Shown piece after piece: positions 19,999-44,454 of a stretch of DNA of 52,262 nucleotides. Numbering within the stretch: position 1 is the stretch's first letter; every line of letters starts with the position of its first letter. The position numbers were made by a program, and so were the translations under genes. Source of the stretch: Actinomycetales bacterium Actino_02 (lineage in GTDB: Bacteria; Actinomycetota; Actinomycetes; Propionibacteriales; Propionibacteriaceae); NCBI GenBank assembly GCA_001603275.1, contig LUYM01000007.1:1-52262 (forward strand), written 5' to 3'. The notes below the pieces were generated by a model. It worked only from the letters and a program-made list of their open reading frames with translations. It was not told where the DNA came from and searched no databases.

Positions 19999-20168
19999 TC
20001 AAACCCGATTTCGGTCCCGATCTGCGGGGCTCGGCGGGGACGTCCGTGGTCAAACCTGGTTTTGGTACCCGATCCGGCGATTCGCAGACCTCTATTGGGT
20101 ACCAAAACCGGGTTCGAGCGAGAGCAGCTCATCAGACAGGCCCAGATTGGGACCAAACTCGGGTTTGA
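19999..20168. repeat. Nested inverted-repeat element, copy 1 (four arms, ~170 bp)
   Basis: Four ~21-bp arms lie at 19999-20018, 20050-20070, 20097-20117 and 20149-20168. The first two read TCAAACC...GGT(A)CCC and the last two read the reverse complement. The inner pair shares GGTACCC/GGGTACC and closes a 26-base loop. The outer pair instead shares GGTCCCxATCTG/CAGATxGGGACC. The gaps between outer and inner arms are 31 bases on each side. Inner arms carry their own palindrome AAACCnGGTTT. The element fills most of the 300-bp gap 19938-20237 between the CPBP and DUF2500 genes, where no gene is seen. A second element with the same geometry lies at 38767-38939. Confidence 0.85.
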
Positions 20169-37991: not shown

Positions 37992-38432
37992 CTAATCGTC
38001 TGTGTCGATGATCAGGGTCATTGGTCCCTGATTCACTAGCGATACCTCCATGTCGGCACCGAATTGCCCGGTCTCAACCGTCGCACCGAGGGTGCGCAGT
38101 TCTTCGACGAAGCACTCCACCAGCGGCTCGCTGATCGGGCCAGGAGCGGCTTTCGACCAGGACGGACGGCGTCCCTTGCGGGTGTCGGCGTACAAAGTGA
38201 ACTGGCTGACCACCAACAGCGGCGCGTTCAGGTCTGCGCAGGACTGCTCGTCCGGCATGATCCGCAGCTGCCAGAGCTTGGCGGCCAGCTTCGTGGCGGT
38301 CTGTTCGGTGTCGGTGTGGGTGACTCCGACCAACACCATCAGCCCCGGTTCGTCGATCCGTCCGATCACCTGGCCGGCCACGCTCACCTGGGCCGAACTG
38401 ACTCGCTGCGCCACCGCTCTCACGGCGTCCAT
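37992..38432 (-). CDS. dtd: D-aminoacyl-tRNA deacylase
   Basis: This 146-residue homodimeric enzyme hydrolyses D-amino acids from mis-charged tRNA. Both hallmark motifs are present: SQFTL (76-80) and the cross-subunit Gly-cisPro in NQGP (134-137). Length is normal. The ATG at 38432 has GAAGGTG upstream. A 520-bp repeat-bearing region without recognisable genes lies upstream of it. Confidence 0.96.
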   Translation of the reverse strand: MDAVRAVAQRVSSAQVSVAGQVIGRIDEPGLMVLVGVTHTDTEQTATKLAAKLWQLRIMPDEQSCADLNAPLLVVSQFTLYADTRKGRRPSWSKAAPGPISEPLVECFVEELRTLGATVETGQFGADMEVSLVNQGPMTLIIDTDD

Positions 38433-38953
38433 CCAAGCACCTTCATGAGCCCCACTTCACCGGCGAGGGCCCGCCTTAGCGCCGAAGGCTCGTCCCTGGA
38501 GTGAAGCTCTCGGCGACAAGGCGAGCCCTCGGCGGTTCCAGGTGGCTGTCTCTGCGGGGGTGGGGGGTGCAGTTCGGCTTGGTTCCCGGTGTCGGCTCGA
38601 TCAGGGTGAGGGGTGGCTGGGGCCGTGGTGAGCTCGACCGTCGGCGCTCTGACCGCCTCCCTGGGCCGCCCCAGGTCGCGACGCAGGTTTCGTCGTCGGC
38701 TGGCTGGTTCCGCGTTCGTGGGGCCAGCCAGGGAGGTGCGCCGTTGCTGCAGGCAGTGCGCCCGGCGCAAACCTTGTTTTCGTCCCCATCTGGATGGGTC
38801 ATCGCGCGCCGACCAACTCGAACCCGATTTCGGTACCCAATACGACACCGAGCGGAGCCGTGATGGGGTACCAAACTCGGGTTTGACCTGCGAGGGTCGG
38901 GCAGACAGCTCTGGATGGGGACGAAAACCGGGTTTGAGCGCGCAGCCAGGTGT
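38433..38953. other. 521-bp gene-poor region carrying a nested-repeat element
   Basis: Several open frames cross this stretch, but none has family resemblance, a ribosome site or a sensible start. The first ~330 bases are G/C-skewed with short imperfect hairpins, for example GGCTGG...CCAGCC around 38700-38730. The last 170 bases are the nested inverted-repeat element. It separates dtd (leftward) from the AbiEi-like gene, whose stop lies 14 bases from the element. Confidence 0.6.
38767..38939. repeat. Nested inverted-repeat element, copy 2 (four arms, ~171 bp)
   Basis: Arms lie at 38767-38787, 38818-38838, 38866-38886 and 38917-38937, with a short extension to 38939. The inner pair shares GGTACCC/GGGTACC around a 27-base loop. 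The outer pair shares TTTTCGTCCCCATC and GATGGGGACGAAAA. Gaps between outer and inner arms are 30 bases on each side. The heptamer CAGACAG occupies the same offset (16-22) in the last gap as in the copy at 19999-20168. Arms within a pair match each other better than they match the other pair. Confidence 0.85.
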
Positions 38954-39913
38954 TCAGCAGCCCAGTGCCCGTCCGACCCGGTCGACGACGACGGCCGGTG
39001 AGAGCAGGATCTCCTTGGCCAGCCAGCGGACCACGCGGTACCCCTGATCACGCAACGCTTGCTCGCGCTGCTTCTCGCGGACAAACGCATCCGGGTCGGC
39101 GTACTTCACTGCGCCGTCGCACTCGCCGATTACGCGCTGCTCTGCCCACAGACAGTCGGGATAGAAGATCCCGATCGGCGTCCTGATCGATGCCTGGAAC
39201 ACCGGTGCCGGGAGCCCGGCGCAGTGGAAATGCCCGGCCGAAAGCGACTCGGCTGCCGATTCTCGGCACGGCTCACACAGCCCGATGGCCTCGGCCAGCC
39301 CTGAGCGGCGATGGGCGCGGGCTGTCGCGAGAAGCTGATTGCGGATCGTCGAGACGAAGGCGGGATTCACGTAGTCGCGCCGCCGAACCGAGCCGACGAA
39401 CCCGGCGCACATCAGCCGGGCCGCACCATCGAGTATCGCCAACGACTCAGGAAGGGACAGCCCGGCGGCAAGGTCGATTGCCGTGCGATGGACTGTGGTG
39501 ATCGGGACTCCGGCGTCGTCGCGGGCGAGGTCACCCGGTGGCAGGGCGGCCACGTGGTGGATGCCGGTGGAACTGCGGTTGGAGCGGTAGCTATAGCCCG
39601 CGGGCAGGGTGATCGAGACGGGCAGTTCCGTCCACCCGGTCGCGGTGGGTGCAGGCAGAAACCAGGCGGCGGCCGCCGACTGATGGCTGATCGCTGCATC
39701 CGGGTTCGCGGCGACCTCTGCCCGTGCCCGAAGAAGATGCTGCGCCAGCGGGTCGTCCGACCATGCCGAACTCGACACATATACGCCGCGCCGGACCTGA
39801 ATCAGCGCGCCGCGACGCAGTTGAGTGGCGAGTGCCTTCCTGCCGACGGCGTGCTCGAGCTCGCGGGCGCGGACGGGATTGTCCGGCAGCGTCCAGACCT
39901 TCGTGGTGCCCAT
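38954..39913 (-). CDS. AbiEi-like winged-helix protein with C-terminal PD-(D/E)XK/DUF559-like nuclease fold
   Basis: This 319-residue protein has an N-terminal wing (AVGRKALATQLRRGALIQVRRGVYV, about 22-46) like the type IV antitoxin AbiEi, and a middle section with ISHQSAAAAW and TTVHRTAIDLAA. The C-terminal domain (about 215-310) resembles DUF559/Vsr nucleases: E222, D253 in FYPDCLW, E264-x-D266-x3-K270 and the helix VREKQREQALRDQGYRVVRW. This architecture is widespread and multi-copy in actinobacteria, and its role is unknown. No AbiEii-type toxin is adjacent. Its stop is 14 bases from the nested repeat. Confidence 0.78.
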   Translation of the reverse strand: MGTTKVWTLPDNPVRARELEHAVGRKALATQLRRGALIQVRRGVYVSSSAWSDDPLAQHLLRARAEVAANPDAAISHQSAAAAWFLPAPTATGWTELPVSITLPAGYSYRSNRSSTGIHHVAALPPGDLARDDAGVPITTVHRTAIDLAAGLSLPESLAILDGAARLMCAGFVGSVRRRDYVNPAFVSTIRNQLLATARAHRRSGLAEAIGLCEPCRESAAESLSAGHFHCAGLPAPVFQASIRTPIGIFYPDCLWAEQRVIGECDGAVKYADPDAFVREKQREQALRDQGYRVVRWLAKEILLSPAVVVDRVGRALGC

Positions 39914-44422: not shown

Positions 44423-44454
44423 CGCAGAAAATGGGGACTGTCCCCTTTTCTGCG
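44423..44454. repeat. Palindromic GGGGACTGTCCCC element, terminator-like
   Basis: CGCAGAAAA and TTTTCTGCG flank GGGGAC-T-GTCCCC, giving a 15-bp stem with one bulged T. It lies between the converging amidase and TetR genes, 8 bases before the TetR stop, and its A/T runs make it a plausible bidirectional terminator. The core belongs to the same GGGGAC/GTCCCC group as the other hairpin repeats in the window. Confidence 0.8.

Follow-up and report, generated by a model that had tools for sequence, protein, structure and literature searches.

In the window analysed here, a stretch of 52,262 nucleotides (67.7% G+C) that forms part of the 3.05-Mb draft genome of Actinomycetales bacterium Actino_02 (G000), the space between dtd and a DUF559 gene houses a nested inverted repeat, c7b, and a second copy, c7a, lies between two other genes of the window (Table 1). 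Each copy of the element consists of four ~24-bp arms in the order A(+), B(+), B′(−), A′(−), all pointing inwards. The window contains the exact sequence TTTTCGTCCCCATC twice, at 38777(+) and 38914(−), both within c7b. When the arms are read as 24-mers, their starts are 51, 45 and 51 bp apart in c7b and 51, 44 and 51 bp apart in c7a. A preliminary description of this DNA gave 51/48/51 and 51/47/52; the near-fixed geometry that it noted stands, while its figures belong to another register. It had also drawn attention to a CAGACAG heptamer at the same offset in the last spacer of both copies. The heptamer is indeed there, but the other 11 of the 13 copies now known from this and a sister species lack it on either strand, and its presence in both window copies is therefore most likely a coincidence.

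Table 1. Positions of the two element copies, their arms and the genes next to c7b in the window.
Feature	Position	Strand	Remarks
Element copy c7b	38767..38937		between dtd and DUF559 gene; detector score 99
c7b outer arm A	38767..38790	+	GCAAACCTTGTTTTCGTCCCCATC
c7b inner arm B	38818..38841	+	TCGAACCCGATTTCGGTACCCAAT
c7b inner arm B′	38863..38886	-	
c7b outer arm A′	38914..38937	-	
Element copy c7a	19999..20168		between Rce1-like (CAAX) protease gene and DUF2500 gene; detector score 108
c7a outer arm A	19999..20022	+	
c7a inner arm B	20050..20073	+	
c7a inner arm B′	20094..20117	-	
c7a outer arm A′	20145..20168	-	
c7b neighbour dtd (D-Tyr-tRNA deacylase)	37992..38432	-	Pfam PF02580
c7b neighbour DUF559 protein	38954..39913	-	Pfam PF04480

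An arm pattern built from the window copies and allowing up to three mismatches produced 7 matches, as compared to 0.01 expected from shuffled sequence. We also used a detector that requires no consensus and looks for four mutually similar 22-mers at the geometry of the element. The window copies scored 108 and 99 with this procedure, while the maximum in block-shuffled controls (661 kb) was 80; reversed sequence was unsuitable as a null, since reversal preserves the architecture.

Size and Geometry of the Repeat Family

A whole-genome pattern search brought the number of copies in G000 to seven, two in the window and five more on contigs C6, C21, C29 (two) and C30. A sister species of the same genus, G015, whose dtd is 92% identical, carries six. 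The existence of a second nested-repeat copy in the window is thus confirmed, and the family is larger than the preliminary description had it. In G015, which is a single contig, all 11 matches to a longer arm pattern fell inside its six copies. A short arm pattern matched 46 times (control, 16), with 21 matches inside the six copies and the remainder apparently scattered; like the longer genome-wide pattern, it missed a relic arm described below, so weak arms can escape. Among 84,980 species genomes, a set from which records near the window may be omitted, the arm sequences of G000 and G015 had five scattered single matches in unrelated organisms, which were taken as chance.

The detector revealed the same architecture, with different arm sequences, at the dtd and pdhA loci of further members of the genus. 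The inner pattern GGTTATN19ATAACC was present in 13 of 197 genomes of the family: eight of the same genus, three of a second genus (g7) and two of other genera (G040 and G115), where the matches look unrelated. The control pattern matched 3 of the 197 (G026 once, G029 five times and G180 once). Class-wide, a similar GGTTAT-type inner pattern was found in 1 of 394 genomes, in an apparently unrelated context, and its control likewise in one genome. In G115 (genus g8), locus L157 carries six dispersed inner-pattern matches, GGTTATTGGTGAG and variants, apparently an unrelated repeat.

Altogether, 49 copies were carried forward, 48 with detector scores of 83–117 and the decayed C30 copy, which was added by hand. 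The lowest score kept, 83 at L111, is barely over the shuffle maximum, and a repetitive stretch that reached 82 in 200 kb of G052 was left out of the count. Since the copies at L107 and L191 (G027 and G012) lie in 3426 bp that are 100% identical, 48 of the 49 are distinct. One of these two drafts has a second dtd, and cross-binning or recent transfer is a possible source of the identity. In the 200 kb of G008 that were scanned, an inverted repeat with GGGGCTTCGACGGGCTCAGCCAACTTG arms 52 bp apart (L206, position 11847) scored 92 and is, by eye, a different repeat. Since several of the compared assemblies are drafts or incomplete, an absence from them carries little weight. No carriage by phages or plasmids was found at the sensitivity of the searches run, and among the literature matches listed there was no apparent description of a four-armed element of such kind.

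The 12 complete copies of G000 and G015 all have a B′–A′ start distance of 51 bp; the A–B distance is 51 bp in 10 and 52 bp in 2, and the B–B′ distance 44 bp in 10 and 45 bp in 2. In copy c30, on contig C30, the fourth arm has been lost, and this copy was excluded from pair counts. A further 28 copies of the GGTTAT type were chosen by the inner pattern, which means that their inner GGTTAT and B–B′ distance are imposed and provide no evidence. Their outer arms, which were left free, still bear GGTTAT at 51 bp: when offsets of 50–53 were tried, 51 was best for 26 of the 28 A arms and 25 of the 28 A′ arms, and 52 for the rest.

When these 28 copies are centred on the dyad, conservation is seen in the arms, with most spacer positions and the flanks near background. 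Each arm is bipartite: its left half varies by subfamily, and a short linker, itself variable, joins it to the right half, which is GGTTATSRG in most copies outside G000 and G015. Left halves include ACTTCCGTG, CGCCGAGTT, CGCGGATT, TCCGCACGAAGTC and others, and several subfamilies coexist in one genome (G026 and G129). The G000 and G015 arms have AACCCGA-type left halves and right halves that are mostly GGTCCCGATC or GGTACCCRAT. When spacers are compared in two orientations and the better one is kept, a weak residual likeness remains among copies (mean z 2.1), indicating that the spacers are not wholly free or that some copies have a common ancestry. Clear spacer likeness was not seen in any pair of copies: the best reach 37–39 of 74, and the orthologous pair c30/g2884 accounts for 39 of 74. 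What had been noticed in the two window copies, that arm likeness and spacing are kept and spacer sequence is not, therefore holds across many more copies.

Turnover of the Element at Orthologous Sites

Orthologous copies were compared in five pairs, namely c7b/g2368, c30/g2884 and three between G026 and G004. Identical positions number 325 of 480 in the arms (68%), as compared to 148 of 349 in the spacers (42%) and 104 of 300 in 30-bp flanks. For the third G026/G004 pair, the flanks align at 88% and 77%. The right-hand arms of the G004 dtd copy may have been read one position out of register, which lowers the arm identity of that copy. At the dtd locus, arms of differing sequence and constant geometry occupy one place in several species.

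The search for copies absent from orthologous sites, proposed in the preliminary description, was carried out for the 11 distinct loci of G000 and G015. Two loci are shared, one is represented by a one-arm relic, and for eight there is no trace at the corresponding syntenic position in the other species. The eight comprise G000 copies c6, c21, c7a and c29b, whose syntenic sites in G015 contain no arm, and four G015 copies, for which no arm is present at the corresponding G000 sites. With two species compared, these eight differences may reflect gain, loss or transposition. At the c29a site of G015, flanked by the same genes, one relic arm persists (L280, 624–647), with a score of 24.3 as compared to a best background of 6.5 in 300 stretches. 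Because one arm remains there, the sequence points to loss of the element in G015. This arm escaped the genome-wide patterns, and further relics may exist. Since most loci are unshared between the sister species, no single copy seems to be needed.

Such turnover would be compatible with a non-autonomous, MITE-like mobile element, whose arms would serve as transposase sites and whose copies would spread while spacers drift. The flanks of c6 and c21 abut in G015, and at c21 a 15-bp direct repeat, CCGGTGGCGTGCACC, surrounds a ~380-bp block that is absent from G015 (L032). Elements of the IS21, Mu and Tn7 type have two tandem repeats at each end. The anatomy described for IS21 ends (PMC10122671) closely parallels that of the arms. 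However, the c21 repeat lies about 100 bp from the arms, at the end of what we take to be an msrA-like gene, and in the remaining 12 of 13 copies there is no flanking direct repeat longer than the shuffled range. At the other unshared loci, sequence is replaced rather than simply inserted, and the differing blocks have no common length. The c29a relic marks a loss, arms are better conserved in place than spacers, and no two copies closely resemble each other in their spacers. No autonomous parent with the same arms was found; in G015, no two-ended element carries them, all matches to the longer pattern being inside its six copies, with the proviso that weak arms can escape. The draft genome of one carrier, G009, has no rve-domain match. 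Absence at 8 of 11 loci is compatible with the mobile unit that was one of three options offered at the outset, much of the other evidence speaks against it, and we consider this origin rather unlikely.

The possibility that the arms are the ends of a resident IS21 was ruled out, since the end sequences of the G015 IS21 copy are unrelated to them. This copy (L275, 3009–6438; IS21 transposase and IstB by NCBIfam) has an IS30 family transposase gene inside it.

Agreement among Arms and Genomic Context

Another claim of the preliminary description was that partner arms co-vary. This can be seen in c7b, but pair-specific covariation has no statistical support. In G000 and G015, the likeness of partners within a copy does not exceed that of partners drawn from different copies (A–A′, p = 0.63; B–B′, p = 0.78), and nested pairing is 81.1%, the same as in shuffles (81.1%). 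Across species, 79.2% of positions are paired in the nested arrangement and 77.2% in the crossed one (A–B′/B–A′). Alignment of copies with a covariation test, as had been suggested, gave a strong signal across species: in the 28 GGTTAT-type copies nested covariation is 0.441, as compared to 0.168 in column shuffles. The crossed pairing scores nearly the same, 0.397, and nothing pair-specific was seen in G000 and G015. Left-half identity in the 28 copies is 0.78 for nested, 0.76 for crossed and 0.76 for direct (A–B) comparisons. A slight own-copy excess of nested pairing was detected in these pattern-selected copies (p = 0.019, uncorrected). In g662, g2710, g2828 and g3217, a central TTT/AAA-type exchange affects a single arm while the partner is unchanged, which breaks the pairing and fits a duplex protein site.

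These results bear on the option of a structured RNA, i.e., a transcribed element that would fold into two nested helices. Its folding energy is strong (z −6.7 and −6.5), nested covariation is far above column shuffles and the small nested excess goes in the same direction. However, any long inverted repeat folds well, which explains the energies, and the nested and crossed pairings, though incompatible in one fold, score alike, which disfavors an RNA helix. The direct repeats A and B agree equally, there is no own-pair excess in G000 and G015, and an RNA would not demand that spacing be near-fixed while spacer sequence goes unconserved. Rfam gave no match in the window and, in 10 further loci, nothing but a neighboring tRNA. 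A structured RNA is thus improbable, and a base-paired helix as the source of the covariation is rejected on the crossed-pairing control together with the lack of own-pair excess. The tRNA gene mentioned (L172, 2856–2928) lies ~34 bp from an element copy in G097. Since a shared binding specificity yields four-way agreement, the arms suggest duplex sites of a trans-acting protein whose specificity would change, rather than an RNA helix. Those who search for RNAs may take a caution from this case: nested covariation seems overwhelming as long as the crossed pairing has not been used as a control.

None of the 49 copies is spanned by a gene predicted with a crude caller. Of these copies, 28 lie between tandem genes, 13 between convergent and 6 between divergent ones, and 2 contexts were undetermined. 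Neighbor functions are diverse, the commonest among 96 being dtd, DUF4184 and E1 dehydrogenase (four each, at orthologous loci), and no common regulon was seen among the neighbors beyond repeated orthologous loci. A four-armed element adjoins dtd in several members of the genus, and in G026 it takes up almost all of the space that separates dtd from the gene upstream. The latter arrangement, and the resemblance of the arms to protein sites, would suit an operator through which an ordinary transcription regulator acts on adjacent genes. Convergent contexts outnumber divergent ones, the neighbors are functionally unrelated and most loci are unshared between the sister species, all of which makes an operator quite improbable.

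We also considered the position of the 11 loci relative to the origin (dnaA of G015 is at 2962893). They lie 78–962 kb from it on replication arms of 1631 kb, at a mean fraction of 0.27, and all 11 fall within the origin-proximal 59% of each arm. The proximity has p~0.003 by simulation (uncorrected) and p = 0.034 by the Kolmogorov–Smirnov test; by genome, the values are 0.011 for G015 alone and 0.023 for G000 alone. Five of the loci were placed by synteny, c29a among the 11 via dnaB, ~10 kb off its true site. G026 was left out, two of its segments that are 46 kb apart mapping to distant G015 sites. Being post hoc and based on 11 loci, the bias is suggestive, and it could stem from other traits of origin-proximal intergenic DNA.

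The idea that the element forms a REPIN/REP family and is mobilised by a RAYT (Y1 transposase) draws on its being an intergenic inverted repeat and on Y1_Tnp genes in G000 (two) and G015 (one, ~3 kb from copy g2710), but it is very improbable and, as far as a general partner is concerned, largely refuted, since carriers G026, G004, G009 and G027 have no Y1_Tnp match (G004 is 89% complete, the rest at least 96%), no arm lies within ~1.5 kb of the three RAYT loci of G000 and G015, and one of these loci is flanked by a different palindrome, GGGGACWGTCCCC. A small palindrome separate from the element, AGAAAAGGGGACWGTCCCCTTTT, occurs at 44434 of the window and in L092 (1314, 2278), L034 (2950, 10048) and L031 (5695). 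In L092 of G000 it flanks a Y1 (RAYT) transposase gene on both sides; elsewhere it is dispersed, in part close to c6, and it is likely a RAYT-associated REP family.

A Candidate Four-Site Protein Platform and Its Relatives

Of the three options raised at the outset, a structured RNA, a protein-binding scaffold and a non-autonomous mobile unit, the scaffold now fits best, given the kept geometry, the conservation of the arms and their four-way agreement. We consider it probable, with some reserve, that the element works in cis as a platform, offering a sequence-specific protein four sites in double-stranded DNA. From the observed architecture, the conservation of arms over spacers, the four-way rather than pairwise agreement and the intergenic placement, we infer a protein, a complex and a chromosomal role as follows. 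A sequence-specific DNA-binding protein would occupy all four bipartite arms, and the inward arms at 51, 44–45 and 51 bp (51 bp being about five helical turns) would support a symmetrical nucleoprotein complex. A shift in the specificity of the protein would be followed by all four arms of a copy, and by the other copies of that subfamily in the genome, while spacers would drift. Rather than regulating local genes, such complexes may act in the chromosome as organisation or segregation marks biased to the origin.

More tentatively, the elements may possibly represent an undescribed class of chromosome marks: a near-constant four-site platform, mainly origin-proximal, whose recognition sequence would be replaced repeatedly and in concert as paralogous proteins re-specify. 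To our knowledge, dispersed protein-binding sites generally conserve the motif and vary in arrangement. Here the reverse is seen: the layout hardly varies, whereas the motif is subject to turnover, and one genome can contain several classes of motif. If a protein family follows the motif changes, the element would lend itself to the study of concerted motif turnover in bacteria, and it might also reveal a new system of chromosome organisation.

Multi-iteron or parS-like partition sites consist of protein sites repeated in phase and have a chromosomal function; the element differs from them in motif, symmetry and turnover. BIMEs are, like REPINs, intergenic inverted repeats with a spacer. The element shares these features with REPINs (PMC3116915), but it has four arms in ++−− order, its spacing is near-fixed and it does not depend on a RAYT gene.

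In anatomy, the element comes closest to the paired direct repeats of IS21-type ends. These are described as lying 23 bp apart, and two HTH modules contact the two conserved parts of each repeat (PMC10122671). The element resembles IS21, and also Mu and Tn7, in having two direct bipartite repeats per side that face their mirror images. It differs from IS21 in that no transposase lies between the ends, the distance across the centre is near-constant and there is no consistent target duplication; membership is not supported.

In distribution, the closest parallel would be the sites of Noc in Bacillus and SlmA in E. coli, which are palindromic, dispersed over the chromosome and largely missing from the terminus region (PMC4331003). 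The loci of the element are likewise dispersed and depleted towards the terminus, suggestively so in the 11-locus uncorrected simulation above. Noc has about 70 sites (PMC4331003); the element is present as six to seven units per genome, each of which gathers four sites.
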